DNA of 33,231 nt from the NCBI GenBank assembly GCA_016201215.1, contig JACQDH010000202.1, forward strand, positions 1 to 33,231, in the 5' to 3' direction. The translations under genes and the position numbers were made by a program. Positions 7,400-17,324 of the stretch are shown one piece after another (the first letter of the stretch is position 1; the number at the start of each line of letters is the position of its first letter). The notes beneath the pieces are model-generated. The model was not told the origin of the DNA and ran no database searches. It saw only the letters and a program-made list of their open reading frames with translations. This DNA comes from Acidobacteriota bacterium (GTDB lineage Bacteria; Acidobacteriota; Terriglobia; Acidiferrales; UBA7541).

Positions 7400-8506
7400 A
7401 TGATGTTGTCTCTGCTCTTGCTTCTGACCGGCGCTTCCTGCTCGCACAGGTCCTCGGCGGGGGACGACCAGGGGGAGGGGAAGGACAATCTTGGCGCGGT
7501 GGTTGCGGAAGTGACGCTGACACGCGTCGCGCGCGCCGAGATCAGCCAGATGCTGGTGGTGACCGGCACGATCGCCGCGCTGCCCAATCAGGATGTACGC
7601 GTCAGCTCCCTGGTCCCCGGCCGCCTCGCGCAGATGAAGGTTGCCGAGGGCGACCGCATCTCCGCCGGACAATTGGTGGCGCAGATTGAAGAGCAGCCTT
7701 TCCGCGACCAGCTTCAGCAGGCCGAGGCAGCCGCGGCCACCGCACGGGCAAATCTTGAGAATGCCAAACTCTCTCGCGCCCGCAACGAAAACCTTTTCGC
7801 GCGCGGTATTGCCGCTCGCAAGGACTTGGAAGACGCGCGAACACTGGAAACCGTCGCCGAGGCCGCCGTCCGCCAGACTGAAGCTGCGCTGGCACTGGCC
7901 CGCCTGCAACTCTCGCGCTGCGAAGTTCGCTCGCCACTGAGCGGCAGCGTGGTCAAGCGCTTCGTCAATGTGGGCGAGCAGGTGGACGGCTCGGCGGCTC
8001 AGCCCATCCTCGAAGTGGCCAACCTCCGCGAGGTCGAGCTGTTTGGCAACGTGTCCTCAGTTTACCTCGGCAAAATGCGGCCAAACCAGACTCTGCCCAT
8101 CTTGAGCAGTGCTTCTCCCGGTAGAGCATTCTCCGGGCGGGTGGTGGCGATTTCGCAGGCGGTTGATCCGGCCACCAACTCCGGTCTGATCCGCATCCGC
8201 ATTGCCAACGGAGACGGGCTGCTGCGTCTGGGGATGTTCCTCAATGCGCAGGTGCCCGTCGAAACGCACGCCCAGGCGCTCGTCGTGCCGCCTCAGGCCA
8301 TCTATCGCGACCAGCAAGGCCAGCCGCACGTGTACCGGGTCGAGGGCGAGAACGCCACTTCGATCCCGGTGCAGACCGGTATCGAGTCGTCGGACCATAT
8401 TGAGTTGCTTTCCGGCGTTGCGGAAGGCGACGCGATCATCCTGGGTGGCGGCTATGGTCTCGGCGAGAAGACCAGGATCAAGGTGCCGGCCCGGGCCAAG
8501 CCATGA
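7400..8506 (+). CDS. Periplasmic adaptor (membrane fusion protein) of RND efflux pump
   Basis: HlyD/RND-type adaptor joining pump and TolC channel. From ATG 7400 the protein has 368 residues: a signal-like hydrophobic run (MMLSLLLLLTGASC), then lipoyl half-motif VSSLVPGRLAQMKVAEGDRI, an alpha-hairpin with RNENLFARGIAARKDLEDA, the second lipoyl half CEVRSPLSGSVVKRFVNVGE, and beta-barrel and membrane-proximal domains (LVVPPQAIYRD). The same frame is open to an ATG at 7250 that abuts the tolC stop. That would add 50 non-secretory residues before the signal segment, so 7400 (or 7403) is preferred although it lacks a good ribosome binding site. The Cys after GAS could be lipidated, but Gly at -3 makes a poor lipobox. 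Its stop overlaps the pump start as ATGA. Confidence 0.9.
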   Translation: MMLSLLLLLTGASCSHRSSAGDDQGEGKDNLGAVVAEVTLTRVARAEISQMLVVTGTIAALPNQDVRVSSLVPGRLAQMKVAEGDRISAGQLVAQIEEQPFRDQLQQAEAAAATARANLENAKLSRARNENLFARGIAARKDLEDARTLETVAEAAVRQTEAALALARLQLSRCEVRSPLSGSVVKRFVNVGEQVDGSAAQPILEVANLREVELFGNVSSVYLGKMRPNQTLPILSSASPGRAFSGRVVAISQAVDPATNSGLIRIRIANGDGLLRLGMFLNAQVPVETHAQALVVPPQAIYRDQQGQPHVYRVEGENATSIPVQTGIESSDHIELLSGVAEGDAIILGGGYGLGEKTRIKVPARAKP

Positions 8507-10041
8507 ACGTGGTGCGCTTCTGCCGGGAGAACCGCTACGCGGTTTACCTGCTGACCGCATTTCTGACCGTCGCGGGTTTTTCCTCGGTTTTCCTCCTTCC
8601 GAGCAACATTTATCCCGAGCTGAACTTTCCGCGCATCCTTATTCTGGCGCACTCGGGCGACCTCGCGCCGGAAACCATGCTGCTGACGGTCACGCGCCCG
8701 CTCGAGGAATCGGCCAGCACCGTGCTGGGCGTGCGACGGGTGCGCTCGAAGACCATTCGCGGCGCCAGCGAGATCGCCGTACTTTTTCACCCGGGCATGG
8801 ACATGCAGTACGCGCTGCAACTCGTCCAGGCGCGCGTCAGCGAAGCGCGTGCCGCGCTTCCCGCGGACACGGACATCGTGGTCGAGCGCGTCACCCCCGC
8901 TGTCTTTCCCGTGGTCAGCCTGATCCTGAATGGCCCGGTGCCCAGCCAGGACTTGCGCGACTACGCCTTCTACGTCCTGCGGCCGCTATTCAGCCGGGTT
9001 TCGGGCGTGGGCCGGGTCGAAGTCCAGGCCAGCGACACCCGGGAAATCTCCGTCATCGTGGACCCCCAGAAGCTGTTAGCGCACCATCTCTCGCTCGTGG
9101 AGGTTGCCGACCGGCTCCGCGCCACCAACCAGGTGACCTCGGTGGGGCGGTTGCAGAAGGACTACCTGCAATACCTGGTCTTGACCACTAGCCAATTCCG
9201 CGATCTCGAAGAGATCCGCAACACCGTGGTGGCCGTTGAAGGTCAGGTTCCCATCCGCCTGCGGGAAATCGCCGAGGTGCGCGACGGCGTAGAGGATCGC
9301 CGCACGCTCATCACCGGCAACGGGCAGCCGGCGGCGCTGATCAATATTTCCCGGCAGATCGGCGGCAATATCTTGCAGATCGCCAGCGACGTCAAGCACC
9401 TCGCCACCCACTTGGGCACGGCCATTCCGCAGACCCTGCGTCTCTCGCTGGTCTATGACCTCGCCGAGTTCGTCGAGAGCGCCATCGGCAACGTCCGCGA
9501 CGCCATTCTGATCGGCGCGGTTCTGGCCGTGCTTATCCTGTTTGTGTTTCTCCGCGAAGGCCGCACCACGCTGATCGCGGCCACGACGCTGCCGCTCTCC
9601 GTCATTGGCACGTTCTTCTTCCTAAAGGTCTTCGGCGGCACGCTGAACCTGATGTCGCTCGGCGGCCTGGCGATTGCCATCGGCCTGATCATCGACGACG
9701 CCGTAGTGGTCATCGAAAACATCTACCGCCACGTGGGCCTGGGCAAATCTCCGGCGCAGGCCGCTGAGCTGGGCACGCAGGAACTGCTCGGGCCGGTGGT
9801 GGGCTCGACCGCAACCACGCTGGTGGTCTTCCTGCCGCTCGGACTGCTCAAAGGCGTCGTCGGCGAGTTCTTCACCGCGCTGTGTCTGACGCTCGGCGTC
9901 TCCGTTCTTCTCTCCTTGGCCTTTGCGCTGACCATCATCCCGCTGCTGTCGCAGCGGTTCCTGCGGCGCGAGGCGTACCGGCCGTCCTCGGCACGGTTCA
10001 TCGAGCCCGTAAATCGCGCCTACGAGAAGGCTGTGCGCTAG
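8503..10041 (+). CDS. RND efflux pump, N-terminal half (ends at in-frame TAG)
   Basis: This 512-residue frame is the first half of an RND transporter: TM1 (about 12-32), porter subdomains PN1/PN2, and TM2-TM6. TM4 carries the proton-relay Asp pair Asp398-Asp399 in LIIDDAVVVIENIYRH. It begins at ATG 8503, overlapping the adaptor stop as ATGA. It ends with TAG at 10039-10041 just after the amphipathic helix that follows TM6. The same frame then continues without interruption into the second half, together about 1010 codons, the usual length for the family. So it is either a nonsense mutation in one gene or a genuine split. In related pumps a Trp or another residue often fits the stop position; TGG to TAG needs one base change. 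Substrate not predictable. Confidence 0.9.
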   Translation: MNVVRFCRENRYAVYLLTAFLTVAGFSSVFLLPSNIYPELNFPRILILAHSGDLAPETMLLTVTRPLEESASTVLGVRRVRSKTIRGASEIAVLFHPGMDMQYALQLVQARVSEARAALPADTDIVVERVTPAVFPVVSLILNGPVPSQDLRDYAFYVLRPLFSRVSGVGRVEVQASDTREISVIVDPQKLLAHHLSLVEVADRLRATNQVTSVGRLQKDYLQYLVLTTSQFRDLEEIRNTVVAVEGQVPIRLREIAEVRDGVEDRRTLITGNGQPAALINISRQIGGNILQIASDVKHLATHLGTAIPQTLRLSLVYDLAEFVESAIGNVRDAILIGAVLAVLILFVFLREGRTTLIAATTLPLSVIGTFFFLKVFGGTLNLMSLGGLAIAIGLIIDDAVVVIENIYRHVGLGKSPAQAAELGTQELLGPVVGSTATTLVVFLPLGLLKGVVGEFFTALCLTLGVSVLLSLAFALTIIPLLSQRFLRREAYRPSSARFIEPVNRAYEKAVR

Positions 10042-10044
10042 GCC

Positions 10045-11538
10045 TTGCGCCGCCGCGCCGCAATAGTGGGCGGCACTCTGCTCTCGGTGCTTGTGGGCGT
10101 GTTGCTGTTCTACTGGATGGAGACCGGATTCCTCCCGGAGATGGACGAAGGCGGGTATGTCCTGGATTACTGGACTCCGCCGGGAACCTCGCTCGCGGAG
10201 ACCGACCGAATCCTCCACCTGATCGAGCAGCGCATCCAGCAGATGCCGGAGACGACCTCATTCTCACGGCGTACCGGTGCCGAACTGGGAATGTTTGCCA
10301 CCGAACAGAACCGTGGCGACATTCTGGTCAAGATGAAGCCGCGCTCCCAGCGCAAGCGCTCGATCGCTGAGGTCATCACCGACCTGCGCGCCCAGATCCA
10401 GCAGAACATTCCCGGCGTGCTCGTGGAGTTTGTCCAGATCCTTCAGGACATGATCGGCGACATGGAAGGCAACCCGGAACCGGTGGAGATCAAACTGTTT
10501 GGTAGCAGCATGCCCGTGCTGGTAAAAGCGGCCGAGGAGCTGGGCCCGAAGATCCGAAAAATTCCAGGCATCGTGGACTACAAGGCGATTCAGAAAGGCA
10601 ACCCCGAGATCATCTTCCACGTGGATCCCATCCTCGCTGGCCGCGTGGGCCTGACCGTGGATCAGGTCTCGCAGCAGGTCAGCGCCGGATTGCTTGGCCT
10701 CACGGAGACGCAGTTCCGCGAGGCCGACCGCACCATCGGCATCCGCGTGCGATTTCCAGACAGCTTTCGCTGGAACTACGCCAACATCCAGCAGTACCCC
10801 ATCGTGACCTCGGCCAAGCAGATTGTGCCGCTCGCCTCGGTGGCCCGGATCGAGCAGGTGCGCAGCGCCAACCAGCTCAATCGGGAGAACCAGCGGCTGA
10901 TGGTGGCGCTGACCGCGCGGCTGGAGAACCGCGACCTGGGCAGCGCCATTCGCGACGTCCAGCGCGTGATGCGCGAGGTGCACCTGCCCGTCGGCTGCAC
11001 CTACGAAATCGGCGGGCAGTACGAAAGCCAGCAAAGTTCCTTCCGCGACCTGCTCTCTGTGCTCGGCCTGGCGCTCGCCGCGGTGTTCACCGTACTGGTC
11101 GTTCAGTTCCGCGCCTTCCGGCCGGCCCTGATCATCCTCTCGGCCGCACCGCTTTCCCTGGTCGGTGTTTTCGCCATGCTGAAGCTGACCGGCACCCCGC
11201 TGAACGTCTCCTCGTTCATGGGCATCATTCTGATGATCGGGCTGGTGGTGAAAAACGGCATCATCCTGTTTGAATACGTGGATAAGCTCTGGGCGGAGCA
11301 GGGATTGCCCTTGCGCGAGGCGCTGGTGGCCGCGGGCACGATCCGCGTGCGCCCCATCCTGATGACTACCCTGGCGACCTTGTTCGGGCTGCTGCCGCTG
11401 GCGCTTGGACTGGGCGCCGGCGCCGAACTTCAAAAGCCGCTGGCGCTGGCGGTGATCGGCGGGCTGACGCTCTCGACGTTCGTCACCCTGCTGGTCATGC
11501 CCGTGCTCTACTCGCTGCTGGAGCGCCGCAGCGCATAG
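10045..11538 (+). CDS. RND efflux pump, C-terminal half (after in-frame TAG)
   Basis: This is the continuation of the preceding RND gene in the same frame, one codon after the TAG; TTG 10045 is the first possible start. The 497 residues contain TM7 (about 7-25), porter subdomains PC1/PC2 (FSRRTGAELG, EFVQILQDMIGDMEGNPEPVEIKLFG) and TM8-TM12. TM10 carries the conserved Lys in MIGLVVKNGIILFEY, part of the proton pathway with the Asp pair of the other half. No clear ribosome binding site precedes TTG 10045, so expression would need readthrough or reinitiation after the stop. All expected RND motifs are intact and no second disruption is seen, which argues for a recent mutation, a sequencing or assembly error, or a functional split. 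Confidence 0.85.
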   Translation: MRRRAAIVGGTLLSVLVGVLLFYWMETGFLPEMDEGGYVLDYWTPPGTSLAETDRILHLIEQRIQQMPETTSFSRRTGAELGMFATEQNRGDILVKMKPRSQRKRSIAEVITDLRAQIQQNIPGVLVEFVQILQDMIGDMEGNPEPVEIKLFGSSMPVLVKAAEELGPKIRKIPGIVDYKAIQKGNPEIIFHVDPILAGRVGLTVDQVSQQVSAGLLGLTETQFREADRTIGIRVRFPDSFRWNYANIQQYPIVTSAKQIVPLASVARIEQVRSANQLNRENQRLMVALTARLENRDLGSAIRDVQRVMREVHLPVGCTYEIGGQYESQQSSFRDLLSVLGLALAAVFTVLVVQFRAFRPALIILSAAPLSLVGVFAMLKLTGTPLNVSSFMGIILMIGLVVKNGIILFEYVDKLWAEQGLPLREALVAAGTIRVRPILMTTLATLFGLLPLALGLGAGAELQKPLALAVIGGLTLSTFVTLLVMPVLYSLLERRSA

Positions 11539-11540
11539 GG

Positions 11541-11565
11541 GAAGCCGCTACGGCCTCACGGCTTC
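11541..11565. terminator. Hairpin between convergent pump and hydrolase genes
   Basis: GAAGCCG (11541-11547) pairs with CGGCTTC (11559-11565) across an 11-nt loop, immediately after the pump stop and overlapping the end of the convergent hydrolase gene. T-rich bases follow on the plus strand, but there is no long T run, so termination strength is doubtful. Confidence 0.35.
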
Positions 11566-13454
11566 TTCTTGGCCACAAACGTCCCCTTGGGCTGGTAGAA
11601 AACTGCTCCGGTCACCATGCCAGATGTATCCTGGTTGAACTCGATGCTGTAGCCGCTGACGCCCTTAAGCTCGAACAGCGTCCCCCTTCTTGGAACCAGC
11701 TCGTACTCGCGGCTGGCCAGCGTTAGGATCAGCGTCTTTTCGCCGCGGAGAGAGACGGCCGCCACGTTTGGGCCCACTTCATACTGTCCGACGAGGATTT
11801 CGAGGAACGCGCGTTCCGTCATCCGCCGATCGGGCCGGCGCGTGAAGACAACCGGCTTCACCGCGGGCTCCATGGGGATGGTGAGGCTGCCGATGTCCCC
11901 CGCGTCGTTGGTGAAGAAGCTGACCTTGGTTCTCTCAATGGGATTCAGGGGATCGGGCGGGGTCTCGAAGATGTCGTAGTGGAAATGCTTGAGCAGGGAG
12001 GAGAGCCGGTTGTAGGTAAGCGTCAGTTCATCCTTTTCCCTCCCGATCCCGACGCTCCCATAGCCTGGATTCTCGTACTCCCCCACGTACTCCTGCAAAT
12101 CGTGCGCGGGATGAGTGCCCTTCTTCTGGATTGTGAATCCCTTCTGCTTTGCCTCCGCCTCGGACGCGTCGTTCTTGTGCAGGTCATCGAGCAGGCGCTG
12201 GTTCCAGGGAACCTGGTCCAGGCCCAGCAGCCGGTCATAGGTGTTGTAGGCGAGGATGCTCGGCAAGCTGTTCCGGTTGGATTCGAGGTTCGTCAGCACG
12301 ACCACGCCGAGGTTGTCCTGCGGCAGGAAGCTCAGCAACGCGGTGAAGCCGTCGATGGCTCCCCCATGGGAAACCATCTTGTGTCCGCGGTAGCTGCTGA
12401 TGCTGAGCGCCATGCCGTAGCTCACGTGGCCGATCTCCGGGTAGCGCAGCGCGCTGGGTGCGACCATCTGCGGGGTGGTCATCTGCGCCACGTTGCTTTC
12501 CGACAGCACACGCGTCTCTCCGTGTTTTCCCCTGCCGAGGTACATCAGCAGGTACTGCGCCATGCCCTCCGCGTTGGAATTGATCGATCCTGCCGGACCA
12601 AGGGCATCGATCACGCGGAAGGGCACCTCCTTGACTTCTTCCGTGCTTCCCTCCTTGGCCACCTTGTAGGGATGCGCGAAGTCCGAGGACTTCTGCGAAT
12701 CGCTCACGGCAAAATTGCTGCTCTGCATTCCCAGCGGGGCAAAGATTCTCTGCTGCACCAGGTCTTCCCACTTCACTCCGGAGACATGGCTGGCCAAGTA
12801 TCCGGCGGTCACGAACATCAGGTTGTTGTACTGGTAGGTGCTGCGGAAATCCTTGCTGGGCTCGAGGTAGCGGAGCCGCTCGACCAGTTGCGCGCGCGTC
12901 AACTCGGAGTTGTACCACAGGGCGTCGTGTCGCGGCAGGCCCGAGCGGTGCGTCACCAGGTCGCGCGGTGTCATGTGCTCGCTGGCCACCTCGTCGTACA
13001 TCCGGAAGCTCGGCATGTACTCGCGCACCGGTTTGTCCCATTCGAGCTTGCCCTCGTCCACCAGCCGGGCCAGCGAGGCCGCGGTGAAGGACTTGGTGAT
13101 CGAGCCGATGGCGAACAGCGTCTGCGGTGTCACGGGGAGTTGGTTCTTCACGTCGCGGAAGCCGTAGCCCCTTGACAGGATCACCTTGCCGTCCTGCACG
13201 ATCACCAGGGACAACCCGGGAACTTTCCAGTCCTTCATCGCCTGGGCCACGAAGGTATCGAAGCCCTCCAGCTTGGAGGTTGTTGCGGCCTGTTCGGCCG
13301 CGCGGGTCGTCGGTTTGCCTTTGGGAGCCGGTTTGGTCTTCTGCTGGGGCGCCACGGGTGGCGTGGTCACGCGAATTTCCTGCTGGGCCGCGACCCGGAT
13401 ACTTGGGGTCACGAGCAGGGACAAACACAGACCAAGGGACAGCCAGCTACGCAT
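11556..13454 (-). CDS. Exported serine beta-lactamase-like hydrolase with DUF3471-type domain
   Basis: 632 residues from ATG 13454, chosen because GAGGAGG lies just upstream and a signal peptide follows directly (MRSWLSLGLCLSLL, cleavage near VAAQ); the frame is open 36 codons further but that extension is not protein-like. A class C beta-lactamase/penicillin-binding fold spans about 60-440, with nucleophile Ser118 and Lys121 in GSITKSFT, Tyr209/Asn211 in YQYNN, and His363-Gly364-Gly365 in VSHGGAIDGF as the KTG-box equivalent. The part beyond about residue 470 (LQEYVGEYENPGYG) resembles the DUF3471 beta domain found at the C-terminus of such esterases and peptidases. It probably acts in the periplasm on an ester or a D-amino-acid peptide. 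A minus-strand TACAAT at 13508-13513 may be its -10 element. Confidence 0.9.
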   Translation of the reverse strand: MRSWLSLGLCLSLLVTPSIRVAAQQEIRVTTPPVAPQQKTKPAPKGKPTTRAAEQAATTSKLEGFDTFVAQAMKDWKVPGLSLVIVQDGKVILSRGYGFRDVKNQLPVTPQTLFAIGSITKSFTAASLARLVDEGKLEWDKPVREYMPSFRMYDEVASEHMTPRDLVTHRSGLPRHDALWYNSELTRAQLVERLRYLEPSKDFRSTYQYNNLMFVTAGYLASHVSGVKWEDLVQQRIFAPLGMQSSNFAVSDSQKSSDFAHPYKVAKEGSTEEVKEVPFRVIDALGPAGSINSNAEGMAQYLLMYLGRGKHGETRVLSESNVAQMTTPQMVAPSALRYPEIGHVSYGMALSISSYRGHKMVSHGGAIDGFTALLSFLPQDNLGVVVLTNLESNRNSLPSILAYNTYDRLLGLDQVPWNQRLLDDLHKNDASEAEAKQKGFTIQKKGTHPAHDLQEYVGEYENPGYGSVGIGREKDELTLTYNRLSSLLKHFHYDIFETPPDPLNPIERTKVSFFTNDAGDIGSLTIPMEPAVKPVVFTRRPDRRMTERAFLEILVGQYEVGPNVAAVSLRGEKTLILTLASREYELVPRRGTLFELKGVSGYSIEFNQDTSGMVTGAVFYQPKGTFVAKKKP

Positions 13455-13555
13455 AGCGCCTCCTCGAGGAGTGAACACCGACCCGATATCAGGCCGCACG
13501 GAGCCCGATTGTACTGAAACAGGTAATACATCGTCTCCGTTTTTGCGACAGGTGA

Positions 13556-13584
13556 TTGACACTGCCTGGCTCGAGGGCTACCAT
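13556..13584 (+). promoter_or_regulatory. Strong sigma70-type promoter for the exported two-gene unit
   Basis: A perfect -35 TTGACA (13556-13561), 17-bp spacer and TACCAT (13579-13584, four of six). The predicted start near 13591 leaves about 30 nt before ATG 13621. It is the best-matching promoter I find in the window. Confidence 0.6.
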
Positions 13585-13620
13585 CCACCAAAGTCTAAGG
13601 GTCGGTCGCGAGGGATTCAC

Positions 13621-14121
13621 ATGCCAGCGTGTTGCAGATTTCTCGTGGCTTTCCTGCTGCTGTTCTTGGTGGCGGGGGTCGCTCCGCGCGCTGCCGCGCA
13701 GGGCGATTTCGAGTGGCGCGTGCAATTGAAGCAGAACATCGTCGCCCCGAGCAACATCGAGGCGGAGAACATCTGTCACCGCACGCACAGCTTTCAGGTC
13801 GAGCCGGCGTCTTTGCCGTTCATGCGCCTGCTCGGGCCCGGCTCGTTTTCGGTCAGCCCCGGCCGGTCCCACAAGGTCCCGGTCGAGTTCGACACGCGCA
13901 ACCAGAAACCAGGGCAACAGGAGGCCGTCATTGTGGTGAAATGTCTGACCTGCAAGAGCGAGAAAGGCTGCCGTCAAGACCACAAGAACCTGCATGTCTT
14001 TCTCACCGTTCTTCCTGCCGCGCCCAACTGGTCCGGCGTCCATCCCGAACAGAAGGGCTCGGCGACGCAGAGCCCCACGCTGCGGTGGTCAAACGTTTCG
14101 CCCGAAAAAAAGCCGCTGTAG
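13621..14121 (+). CDS. Small exported Cys-containing protein, unknown function
   Basis: 166 residues from ATG 13621, preceded by a GAGGG-type ribosome binding site. A clear signal peptide (hydrophobic 8-20, cleavage near RAAAQ) shows export. The mature part has a beta-sandwich feel: alternating strands with FQVEP, FSVSPGRSHKVPVEFDTR and EAVIVVKCLTC, similar to the pattern of ASPM/SPD-2/Hydin-type immunoglobulin-like domains, but I cannot assign a family. Four mature Cys (ICHRTH, and CLTCKSEKGC) could form disulfides or bind a metal. The C-terminal 30 residues are polar and probably flexible. The gene ends 42 bp before the tetrad-repeat gene and shares its promoter, so the two exported products may act together (inference). 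Confidence 0.75.
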   Translation: MPACCRFLVAFLLLFLVAGVAPRAAAQGDFEWRVQLKQNIVAPSNIEAENICHRTHSFQVEPASLPFMRLLGPGSFSVSPGRSHKVPVEFDTRNQKPGQQEAVIVVKCLTCKSEKGCRQDHKNLHVFLTVLPAAPNWSGVHPEQKGSATQSPTLRWSNVSPEKKPL

Positions 14122-14163
14122 GGGTTCCGGGCGGCGACATTCCGTTTTACTGTGAGGTCGGCA

Positions 14164-16221
14164 ATGAGTCTTGCGCTCCTGCGTTCCCGTTCTTCCGTAT
14201 GGATGGTTCCTTTCTGCCTGGCGATTCTCGCCGGACTGCTGCCCGGGGTCGCCCACGCGCAGTTGCCCTACGCCCCCCCGACCGCCTGCAAGCAGCTTTG
14301 GGATGAAGCCAGCGCCCAGGCCGCGCAGGCCGCGCAGGAAAAGGCCAGCTTGGCGGCGGGTGCTGCACCGAGCGCCGCGGCCAGCCGTTGGGCGCAAGCC
14401 TGGACGCAAGCCTGGATCGCCCCTTGGACCGCGCCGGCCACGGGGTTGCAGCCGTCGCGCGCCGACCGTTGCTGCGACAGCAACTGGTTCGAACTCGCTG
14501 CGCAAACCGGCAAGGCCGGCTGGGTAACGGCATGGAAGGCGGCCGGCGGGTTGAGCGGCCCAGACAAGGCGTGGGCCGAAAAGTATGCCGACAGCTACGC
14601 CGGGGAATGGGCAAGAGAGTGGTTCGTGTCCTATCCGTGGTTGTGTGCCATGGCGCGCGCGAAGGCTCAAGCCGAGCGTTTTCGCGATCGCGCGCGCTTC
14701 AGCGACGCCACTGCCGACGCGTGGGCGTGGGCCTGGGCAGACCTCGACGTTTGGGCGCAAGTGCGTGCGTCGGTCTGGACTGAAGTGTGGACGAAGGCAG
14801 GATCCGCCGCCTGGGCCAAGGCGGGCGCCGAGGCGATGACCGCCGCGGCGGCATCCGCGGAGAGCACGGCCCTGGCCGCAGTCTCAGGCAATTGCGCCCT
14901 TGCGGCGGCCAGCGCCTGCGCCAGAGCCGCTGCGGCTGCCTACGCTGCAGCTTGGGCCGCGGCAGGTTCCAGTGCGTACAGCTCCGCGTACGCAGAGGCT
15001 TCCGCCGAGGCCATGGCGCGAGCGTTCGCAGAAGCCTGGGCCGGGGCGATGTCCGGCGCAAACGCGGAAGCATTTGCAGCCGCCTATGCGAAAGCGTTTG
15101 CGAAAGCGGGAGCAAAGGCGTTTGCTGCCGTTTGGCGATTGCGGCTGGCTGACGAAGGGCAGCTATCCCAGATTGTTAAATGGTGGAAAACCCCGGGGGT
15201 CCCGCAGCCTCCATTCCAGTCGATTTGGAAACTCCTCGCTGCGGCACGGGCCGAGGCAACCAAGAAAGCGGTAGCAGAGGCTTGGGCTATTGCCTGGGCA
15301 GAGGCCCCGCCCGCCTTCGCTAGCGATTTCAAACACGTGCGATCATACGTGTACGAATACCTACACGCCTGGACCAGTAGCTGGGTCAACTCCTGGACGG
15401 AAAGTTGGGCATATGCCTGGGCCCGCGCCTGGGCAGAAGCCTACGCCTTGGCCTGCTCGCGGGCGGCCGCTGTGGCCTGTGCCCAGTGCCCGCCGTGTAC
15501 CACGACGACCACAACGGGGCGCCCGCGCACCATCGAGCGGCCAAGTGGTTTCACTTATACGCTGGTCGGACTAGGCGTGACCGCCGGCAGCATCATCCAG
15601 ATCGTCGTGCGCAACACCACCGGCGAGCCAATCGTCGTCGAGGTGCCCGCCGGCACTGTCTTCAAGCCCAGCGACCCGCAGCACCAGCGCATGGTCATCT
15701 CCGAGGATCAGCGCGTCACCGTGCCATCCAATCAGACCACGCAGGCTCCCTTGCAGGGATACTGTCTTGATTACGGCAAGCTGCCACCCCCACCCACGAC
15801 CCTGGGCGCGCTGGCCACCGAACCTGTGCTCGTGGCCGCGCTGGACCCCAGGTTCGCTTTGTCTTCCACGCTCGGTCCGCAGGCCCCGGGCGGCGCTGTG
15901 AAGTATCAGCTCGATGAGAATCCCGCTGCCTACGCGCCGTTCCTCCGCATTATCGAGTCGGGGAATCGTCTGGCGGGTGAAGGCAAGTTCCACACGGACC
16001 TGCCGCCGGACAAGCACAAACTGGCTGTCATCCAGCGCGCCTTGTGGACCTACGCGACGCGCAACACGCCCACGCCGCACACCCGCGAGACTCTGCTCGC
16101 CGACATCCGCCGCCAGGTGAAGGAATCCGGCGGGACACAGACCGAGGAGCAAATCCAGGAGCTGGTGACGCACATCGCCGAAGACATCGAAAGCGTCCTC
16201 CGCGCCGCCGAACGGAAGTAA
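14164..16221 (+). CDS. Exported tetrapeptide-repeat protein rich in Ala and Trp, unknown function
   Basis: 685 residues from ATG 14164, with GTGAGG seven bases upstream; a GTG four codons earlier is less likely. The signal peptide ends near VAHA (32). Residues about 35-445 are extremely Ala-rich with some 33 Trp. An aromatic or other large residue recurs every fourth position, for example W76/80/84/88, a 17-position run from Y260 to W324, and W403/407/411/415/419/423/Y427. Conserved-looking Cys lie at the repeat ends (C431 and the CAQCPPC cluster). A Thr-rich linker leads to a beta-rich region at about 455-540 (IVVRNTTGEPIVVEVPAGT) ending GYCLDYGKLPPPP, then a helical tail containing VIQRALWTYAT (Q624). 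I do not recognise the repeat family. A surface, fibre or adhesive role is inference. The preceding exported gene is 42 bp upstream. Confidence 0.8.
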   Translation: MSLALLRSRSSVWMVPFCLAILAGLLPGVAHAQLPYAPPTACKQLWDEASAQAAQAAQEKASLAAGAAPSAAASRWAQAWTQAWIAPWTAPATGLQPSRADRCCDSNWFELAAQTGKAGWVTAWKAAGGLSGPDKAWAEKYADSYAGEWAREWFVSYPWLCAMARAKAQAERFRDRARFSDATADAWAWAWADLDVWAQVRASVWTEVWTKAGSAAWAKAGAEAMTAAAASAESTALAAVSGNCALAAASACARAAAAAYAAAWAAAGSSAYSSAYAEASAEAMARAFAEAWAGAMSGANAEAFAAAYAKAFAKAGAKAFAAVWRLRLADEGQLSQIVKWWKTPGVPQPPFQSIWKLLAAARAEATKKAVAEAWAIAWAEAPPAFASDFKHVRSYVYEYLHAWTSSWVNSWTESWAYAWARAWAEAYALACSRAAAVACAQCPPCTTTTTTGRPRTIERPSGFTYTLVGLGVTAGSIIQIVVRNTTGEPIVVEVPAGTVFKPSDPQHQRMVISEDQRVTVPSNQTTQAPLQGYCLDYGKLPPPPTTLGALATEPVLVAALDPRFALSSTLGPQAPGGAVKYQLDENPAAYAPFLRIIESGNRLAGEGKFHTDLPPDKHKLAVIQRALWTYATRNTPTPHTRETLLADIRRQVKESGGTQTEEQIQELVTHIAEDIESVLRAAERK
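14389..14427 (+). repeat. First tetrad repeat block (W76-W88)
   Basis: Encodes four Trp spaced exactly four residues apart (76, 80, 84, 88). The DNA has a 12-bp rhythm around TGG codons but is too diverged to be an exact nucleotide repeat. Confidence 0.8.
14752..14838 (+). repeat. Second tetrad repeat block (W197-M225)
   Basis: In one phase of four, the positions read W197, R201, W205, W209, G213, W217, G221, M225, with Val or Ala just before most of them. It is preceded by a denser WAWAW run (187-191). Confidence 0.75.
14941..15135 (+). repeat. Main uninterrupted tetrad block (Y260-W324)
   Basis: Seventeen consecutive positions at spacing four read Y W G Y Y S M F W M N F Y F G F W; eleven are aromatic. 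The residue before each is Ala in 15 of 16 cases and the middle residues are mostly Ala with Glu, Lys, Arg or Ser. Codons vary between units, so the pattern is held at protein level rather than being a fresh DNA expansion. Confidence 0.9.
15370..15444 (+). repeat. Last tetrad block (W403-Y427)
   Basis: Six Trp and one Tyr at exact four-residue spacing (403, 407, 411, 415, 419, 423, 427), with Cys431 continuing the phase. The first tetrads use Ser/Thr/Asn between the Trp, the last use Ala/Arg/Glu. Confidence 0.88.
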
Positions 16222-16490
16222 CGAAAGTCGCCACGCCGAGTTCGTTTTCGGATCGAGCGCCATGGTCTGGGCGCCGCCCGGCTGGCGGATATAACCCGAG
16301 TCATTGCTCAGGGCATCCAATAACACGGGGAACTGGGTCAAGGAATTCATTTGGCAGAGCGGCTGCGAAGCGATATCCTCCTGTTTCAGCCTTGGACGCT
16401 TCCAGCCGCGTTCCGCAGCGACTTCCAGCCCGGCCCGAAAGCAACGAGCAAGAGGACTACAGATTCAGTCTTTTTCTGGGGGCATCGGTC

Positions 16491-17324
16491 ATGAAACGAC
16501 TCATCGTGCGTCGAGCTTTGCTTGCGCTTTTTGGCATGTTCGCCTTGGCTCTCTCGGTGTCGGCCGACACGCTAGAACTGAAAGATCGCCGGGTGATCGT
16601 CGGGAAATACCTCGGCGGCACGCAGTCCAACATCCGCTTCGAGGTCAACGGTAGGGTCGAATTGTTTCCCGTCGAAGAGATCGTGGCCCTGACCTTCGGG
16701 GCAGACGCCAGGACTACGAGGGAAGAATCCCAGGCACCGGCCGGCGCTCCGCCGGTCACTTCTCGATCCGCTGCCGAACGCGCCGGTCGGCCCCATAGGG
16801 TCACTGTCCCAGCGGGAACGCGCATTCTCGTGCGCATGATCGATAGTGTGGACTCGGAGAGGAACCGCGTCGGCGACAAGTTCCGCGCCAGCCTCGAAGA
16901 AGATCTGACCGTTGAGGAGGTGGTCGTCGCGCCGAAGGGCACCGACGTGTATGGCCGGCTCGCCGAGGCCAAGGAGGCCGGGCATATTTCGGGCAAGTCG
17001 GAGCTGAAGTTGGAACTCACCGACATTCTGATCAACCAGCAGTTGCAGCCGATCGTCACCGGGGATTACGAGGTCAGTGGCAAATCGCGCGGCGGAAACA
17101 GCGCCGCAAAGATCGGTGGCGGCGCCGCCGTCGGCGCAATCATCGGCGCGATCGCGGGCGGCGGCAAGGGCGCCGCGATCGGGGCGGGCGTGGGCGCCGG
17201 CGCGGGCACGGTGATCCAGGTGCTCACCCGGGGAGAGCAGGTCCGCGTGCCCAGCGAGACCCTGCTGGAGTTCCGCATCGAGCAGGCTTTCACGGTCGAG
17301 CCGTCCCGGACCCTCAACCGCTGA
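16491..17324 (+). CDS. Exported glycine-zipper protein, unknown function
   Basis: 277 residues from ATG 16491. The frame is open far upstream but only this ATG is followed by a signal peptide (KRLIVRRALLALFGMFALAL, cleavage near SVSA at 25). A short N-terminal segment (LELKDRRVIVGKYLGGTQSN, FPVEEIVALTFG) resembles the small strand-rich repeats of exported acidobacterial-type proteins. A middle domain (about 105-200) begins VTVPAGTRILVRMIDSVDSE and includes VGDKFRASLEEDL and VVAPKGTDVYGRL. A glycine-zipper stretch (about 208-240, alternating Gly and Ala/Ile/Val) may insert in or lie on a membrane. A final strand region reads VPSETLLEFRIEQAF. The role is unknown; an envelope-associated structural function is inference. 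It is separated from the tetrad-repeat gene by 269 bp with no clear promoter. Confidence 0.78.
   Translation: MKRLIVRRALLALFGMFALALSVSADTLELKDRRVIVGKYLGGTQSNIRFEVNGRVELFPVEEIVALTFGADARTTREESQAPAGAPPVTSRSAAERAGRPHRVTVPAGTRILVRMIDSVDSERNRVGDKFRASLEEDLTVEEVVVAPKGTDVYGRLAEAKEAGHISGKSELKLELTDILINQQLQPIVTGDYEVSGKSRGGNSAAKIGGGAAVGAIIGAIAGGGKGAAIGAGVGAGAGTVIQVLTRGEQVRVPSETLLEFRIEQAFTVEPSRTLNR

Follow-up and report, generated by a model that had tools for sequence, protein, structure and literature searches.

Repeats of four residues rich in alanine and tryptophan have been described in phages, for instance in gp54 of mycobacteriophage Tweety, where the repeat unit contains two adjacent alanines (PMC2884959). 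A related regularity is known from the ionic-complementary peptides EAK16 and RADA16, in which Ala alternates with larger residues and which form β-sheets (PMC2387071, PMC8216384). Among helical assemblies, the periods accessible to coiled coils range from 3.33 to about 3.9 residues per turn, and a period of 4.0 has been named as lying outside this range (PMC4786415). Thioester domains (TEDs) of bacteria, in turn, are recognised by two motifs, [YFL]C followed by a hydrophobic and a hydrophilic residue (PMC4450167) and QxxPhiW (PMC4450167, PMC6194298), and the Gln of the latter is not essential for the thioester bond in known domains (PMC4450167, PMC6194298). A survey from 2015 confined TEDs to Gram-positive bacteria (PMC4450167). 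The protein analysed here, encoded in a window of 33,231 nt from an Acidobacteriota bacterium, touches on all of these systems. It is a real, unusual and structurally unexplained protein that consists of an Ala/aromatic repeat followed by a C-terminal (tail) domain, and the family to which this tail domain belongs is a more general discovery than the repeat itself.

The reading frame of the repeat gene is open from a GTG at 14152 or an ATG at 14164 to 16221 on the forward strand (689 and 685 codons, respectively). Because the GTG chosen by the ORF finder overlaps the GAGG that sits 6 nt upstream of the ATG, ATG 14164, the start also preferred in an earlier sequence-only reading of this DNA, is the better one. 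Residues are numbered here in the 689-aa frame counted from the GTG, which adds 4 to the numbers of that reading. Judged from its sequence pattern, the protein is probably exported by means of a plausible signal peptide ending in AHA|Q, as had been proposed. The full-length protein matches no family in Pfam or NCBIfam, and a search for the whole protein with 8-mer patterns in 60 relatives and in genome contigs gave no match; the gene was found in one genome. Its main features are as follows.

14154-14157, forward strand: Shine-Dalgarno sequence GAGG, 6 nt 5' of ATG 14164, read off the sequence
14164..14259, forward strand: predicted Sec signal peptide, putative cleavage AHA|Q, from the sequence pattern
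14260..15477, forward strand: Ala/aromatic repeat region, residues 37-442, 33 Trp, unit aromatic-Ala-polar-Ala
15478..15516, forward strand: Cys/Pro/Thr linker CAQCPPCTTTTTT, from the sequence
15559..16218, forward strand: C-terminal domain, residues about 470-689, family with thioester-domain-like motifs and 11 other full-length members

The gene lies in an interval whose content differs from that of a same-genus genome (G001), with collinear flanks on both sides. In blastn against the corresponding locus (L167), 7592-13331 is collinear at 77% identity and 16512-17305 at 75%, and collinearity extends to 19509. In the same interval G001 encodes FecR-like, YncE-like and β-lactamase-like proteins, named by reading their translations. 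The repeat gene is preceded by a gene for a small protein that probably belongs to the same operon.

13332..16511, no strand: variable interval between collinear flanks
13621..14121, forward strand: small exported-type protein of 166 aa with a signal-peptide-like N-terminus, 42 nt upstream of the repeat gene

This small protein, scanned as the longer ORF 13186-14121, has no Pfam or NCBIfam match and, of 299 genomes searched in the class, occurs in one, the source genome. No tRNA was found in the window. Outside the interval, an AcrB-type efflux pump gene (8503-11538, forward strand) is interrupted in frame by a TAG (10039-10041), and its two halves match ACR_tran in the same frame; the AcrB-type gene of the same-genus relative has no stop at that position.

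The mature N-terminal part of the protein (Q37-C446, 410 residues) contains 33 Trp, 57 aromatic residues in all and 135 Ala, in line with the earlier count of about 33 Trp in some 400 Ala-rich residues. The aromatic residues recur at an exact spacing of four, with 28 pairs at lag 4 against 7.7 expected (z 8.4), a number reached by none of 5000 shuffles. An excess of pairs is likewise seen at lags 8, 12 and 16, and a deficit at lags 3, 5 and 7. The three runs on which the sequence-only reading had built its claim were all recovered. In its own numbering, W76-W88 (four of four positions aromatic) and W403-Y427 (seven of seven) hold as described, and so do the 17 positions, 11 of them aromatic, of Y260-W324, in which Ala precedes 16 of the 17 positions. 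In the present numbering, and with one run that had not been listed, these stretches are:

14389..14427, forward strand: run W80-W92, four Trp at spacing 4
14572..14634, forward strand: run W141-Y161, six aromatics at spacing 4, the run not listed before
14941..15135, forward strand: run Y264-W328, 17 positions, 11 aromatic, strict Ala alternation
15346..15444, forward strand: run Y399-Y431, nine consecutive aromatics at spacing 4 (YYWWWWWWY), the longest exact aromatic run

The dominant period of the region is nevertheless 2, with Ala alternating with larger residues, a signal that is stronger than the aromatic spacing and had been missed. Ala pairs at lag 2 number 78 against 43.9 expected (z 7.7), and the Ala signal of residues 261-328 has a spectral power of 36.8 at 180 degrees (shuffle 95% level 7.3) and of 0.1 at 100 degrees. 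Power at 180 degrees exceeds the shuffle 95% level in residues 185-245, 261-328 and 399-434, and hardly any power is present at 100 degrees over 261-328 and 399-434. Strict alternation is confined to parts of the region, namely residues 185-245, 261-331 and 399-434. Among about 1,800 other frames of at least 200 aa in the loci compared, stronger Ala alternation occurs only in two frames of a simple-repeat locus (L020).

At the DNA level no corresponding repeat is found. Adjacent 12-nt units share 5.5-7 of their 12 bases and none are identical, identity at a 12-nt step is 0.48-0.49, and Tandem Repeats Finder reported nothing on the two longest runs. The units being diverged and a 12-nt DNA repeat absent, the pattern resides in the protein sequence, which agrees with the earlier view that it is kept at protein level. 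This also separates the gene from the phage tetrapeptide-repeat proteins (Tweety gp54; AAWD/AAR arrays), with which it shares an exact period of 4, richness in Ala and the frequency of Trp at one position. Phage arrays mostly have a 12-nt step identity of 0.8-0.96 and a unit with two adjacent Ala, whereas here Ala occupies phases 1 and 3 and, unlike the phage proteins, the repeat is accompanied by a signal peptide and, at the C-terminus, by a domain from a different family. Among the matches listed, arrays of Ala/Trp/Arg tetrapeptides abound in viral contigs (e.g., L100, L256, L261). The statement that no described family has this pattern thus stands for this particular repeat, and not for four-residue Ala/Trp repeats as such, which are known from phages. 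No homologue of the repeat with the same spacing was found. A BLAST search with the repeat alone in phages and plasmids, with the low-complexity filter on, gave no match, and a scan of 299 genomes for the WxxxW DNA pattern was swamped by chance and out-of-frame matches. One candidate, a locus of genome G006 with hydrophobic residues at every fourth position, was rejected as unsupported, the long frame there encoding an RHS-like protein.

A recent, possibly functionless low-complexity gene, in which an Ala/Trp stretch arose in a variable locus beside a borrowed tail and the pattern is unselected, would fit the occurrence of the repeat gene in one genome, the absence of this variable site from G001 and the codon usage, GCA and GCT making up 26% of Ala codons in the repeat gene versus 13-15% in the two neighbouring genes. 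However, 685 codons are open with the signal peptide and the full tail domain in frame, and the period is exact despite a unit identity of 0.48 (0.8-0.96 in most phage arrays), while drift would blur it. We regard such an origin as improbable.

The fold of the repeat region can be approached from the same periodicities. The earlier reading calculated correctly that in a helix a step of four residues advances by 40 degrees, and proposed a coiled or stacked fibre or a non-standard helix. An aromatic period of 4.0 and the lack of power at 100 degrees seem to exclude a regular coiled coil; the other part of the proposal, a non-standard helix or a fibre, keeps its place because a period of 4.0 falls outside the published coiled-coil limits (PMC4786415). 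Structure prediction, which that reading had suggested, was carried out with AlphaFold2 (AF2). The full-length model, built without related sequences, has a pLDDT of 54 and places helices over most of residues 43-445 (block pLDDT 41-71). AF2 may be prone to predict helices in Ala-rich chains when related sequences are lacking, which weighs against taking this model at face value. It is possible, at less than an even chance, that the region forms an α-helical bundle or stalk devoid of β structure, in which the aromatics would wind round each helix and pack among short helices. Such a bundle agrees with the predicted helices and with the abundance of the helix formers Ala, Glu, Lys, Arg and Gln, and the full model loosely matches generic seven-helix bundles (microbial rhodopsins, Z about 10, rmsd 6.3). 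This last match is a generic arrangement, and a rhodopsin-like identity of the protein was rejected on that ground. The near absence of power at 100 degrees in the strict segments and the period outside 3.33 to about 3.9 (PMC4786415) argue against helices of this kind.

Alternation of Ala with period 2 is equally typical of β-strands. By analogy with EAK16 and RADA16, the repeat might form silk-like or ionic-complementary β-sheets with one face of Ala and the other of alternating aromatic and charged residues, stacked into a fibre. The strong 180-degree signal over residues 261-328 speaks for such sheets, as does the behaviour of the two Ala-alternating peptides (PMC2387071, PMC8216384). The likeness is one of pattern and not of kinship, since the precedents are short peptides that lack an aromatic at every fourth residue, and EAK16 was studied for the way in which its structure changes with conditions (PMC2387071). 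Moreover, the alternation is strict only in the three segments given above and the AF2 model calls the repeat helical. β-sheets are a somewhat doubtful proposition for this region.

The C-terminal third of the protein, which had gone unnoticed, forms a conserved domain of its own. It scores over the cut-off of no family in Pfam or NCBIfam and, by sequence comparison, represents a family not described before and absent from both collections. As a query, the domain alone yielded mostly chance matches, several of them with stops, and one real, weak match in genome G237 (L005). Profiles starting from this match led to G403 and G456 and then to G697, G721 and G762. The family comprises 12 full-length members including the repeat protein, all from Acidobacteriota, plus one partial member in G721. 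Two loci of Acidobacteria bacterium ND5_Bin_50 (L180, L181) are apparently the G403 members. The contig title of L179, apparently the G456 member, says Cyanobacteria, while G456 is placed in Acidobacteriota. A scan with the tail domain (A3) found none in viral contigs, none in plasmids and three loci in genome contigs, apparently ones already known, and a sequence search of solved structures with A2 or A7 gave no relative. The domain is always C-terminal and the N-termini of its members are unrelated to each other, including FecR (PF04773, E 5.4e-15), a coiled coil, HExxH-containing and Pro/Gly-rich segments and a frame of 2164 aa. In two members, L202 and L196, the N-terminal HExxH (HENFH and HEFWH, respectively) suggests metallopeptidases. 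In L198 (G721) three members lie close together on one strand, the third being partial.

Invariant in the 12-member alignment are G475, G479, C538, P546, Q628 and W632. Three of these residues fall in the two motifs below, which also hold when two further sequences (L204, L205) are added to the alignment.

15763..15765, forward strand: invariant Cys538, motif [YF]C-hydrophobic-hydrophilic (GYCLD)
16033..16047, forward strand: QxxPhiW motif QRALW, invariant Gln628 and Trp632

The Cys motif reads [YF]C in 12 of 12 members, with the hydrophilic position in nearly all, and the second motif (QRALW, QWAMW, QWSIW, etc.) is predicted to lie in a helix, the leading Thr of the TED motif TQxxPhiW not being conserved. 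TED is the only Pfam family that recurs over the wider set of 14 sequences, matching four of them in register (E 0.00072, 0.0055, 0.041 and 0.054), all under the cut-off. Two of these four matches are TED-like proteins from the source's own GTDB family that lie outside the core members. One, L204 (G024), is a 151-aa frame with AYCANFGK and LQAAVW, just under the cut-off at E 0.00072, and may connect the new family with TED. The other, L205 (G033), is a PEP-CTERM protein with FYCVDF and QWAIW (E 0.0055, sub-threshold) and could be a thioester domain outside Gram-positive bacteria. The curated PF08341 cut-off is 22 bits; the repeat protein has no match to this family, and the best core member scores 14.7 bits (E 0.041). 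The idea of a thioester domain was drawn from the motifs, ahead of any fold search. The L179 domain, modelled with AF2 from four sequences (pLDDT 74.5, pTM 0.70), is predicted to consist of β-strands followed by a helix bundle. This four-sequence model aligns to the SfbI thioester domain (5a0l) over 134 residues (15-210) with Z 4.9 and rmsd 4.3, a Z in the range of common arrangements that proves nothing alone. 5a0l ranks second among 995 aligned chains and gives the longest alignment among the matches listed; no second thioester-domain entry stands among those listed, which carries no weight in either direction. Foldseek gave no match at E 0.001 or better, and a comparison with the thioester-domain protein encoded by plasmid pLS20 brought out no useful profile match for the family.

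With TEDs (PF08341; SfbI 5a0l, class I and II) the tail domain has in common both motifs, a β part followed by a helix bundle as predicted by the model, and occurrence in exported-type modular proteins. It differs in lying under the Pfam cut-off, in its C-terminal instead of N-terminal position, in its acidobacterial host without a sortase signal seen and in the strand of the bond-forming Gln (Phi-Q-zeta-Phi-Phi): no second conserved Gln occurs in the 12 members, and the region after QxxPhiW is predicted to be helical. The domain therefore looks like a relative of thioester domains outside Gram-positive bacteria and, by its sequence and model, may work like a thioester-domain module. That it is a canonical thioester-domain adhesin, in which Cys538 would form an internal thioester and react covalently with a target, would agree with the two recognisable motifs, the invariance of the Cys, the sub-threshold Pfam matches in register and the presence of 5a0l in the fold list. 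It is nonetheless very unlikely, given that a strand for the bond-forming Gln is missing, that the Gln of QxxPhiW is dispensable for the bond in known domains (PMC4450167, PMC6194298) and that no member exceeds the Pfam cut-off.

The reading towards which we lean, still tentatively, is that of a modular exported protein in which a structural repeat is borne by a thioester-domain-like tail. The Sec signal would take the protein out of the cytoplasm, where the 400-residue low-complexity segment of aromatic-Ala-polar-Ala units would serve as a structural element (a stalk, a fibre or a matrix-forming segment). In an extended conformation of this segment, one side would carry Ala and the other an alternation of aromatic and charged residues. 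The Cys/Pro/Thr linker would connect it to the tail domain, predicted to be a small β domain with the invariant Cys packed on a helical bundle that carries the invariant Gln and Trp, an arrangement known from bacterial thioester domains. The likely task of the tail is to keep the protein attached to the cell surface or to a partner. What the sequences themselves establish is the repeat pattern, the open frame, the domain family with its common motifs and the C-terminal placement of the domain behind differing N-termini; we infer export, a structural function for the repeat, anchoring or binding by the tail and any chemistry of the Cys. A bolder version, to which we give little credence, is a bacterial aromatic silk, i.e., an exported Ala/aromatic chain in β-sheet fibres fixed to the cell or its neighbours by a thioester-domain relative that would use Cys538 in a new way, within a family that displays unrelated exported proteins of Acidobacteriota.

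In all, a natural chain of 400 residues built of aromatic-Ala-polar-Ala units is a rare test case for the fold of such patterns. In Acidobacteriota, a phylum whose surface biology is poorly known, the tail-domain family stands on many exported-type proteins in the manner of a module for sorting or attachment.
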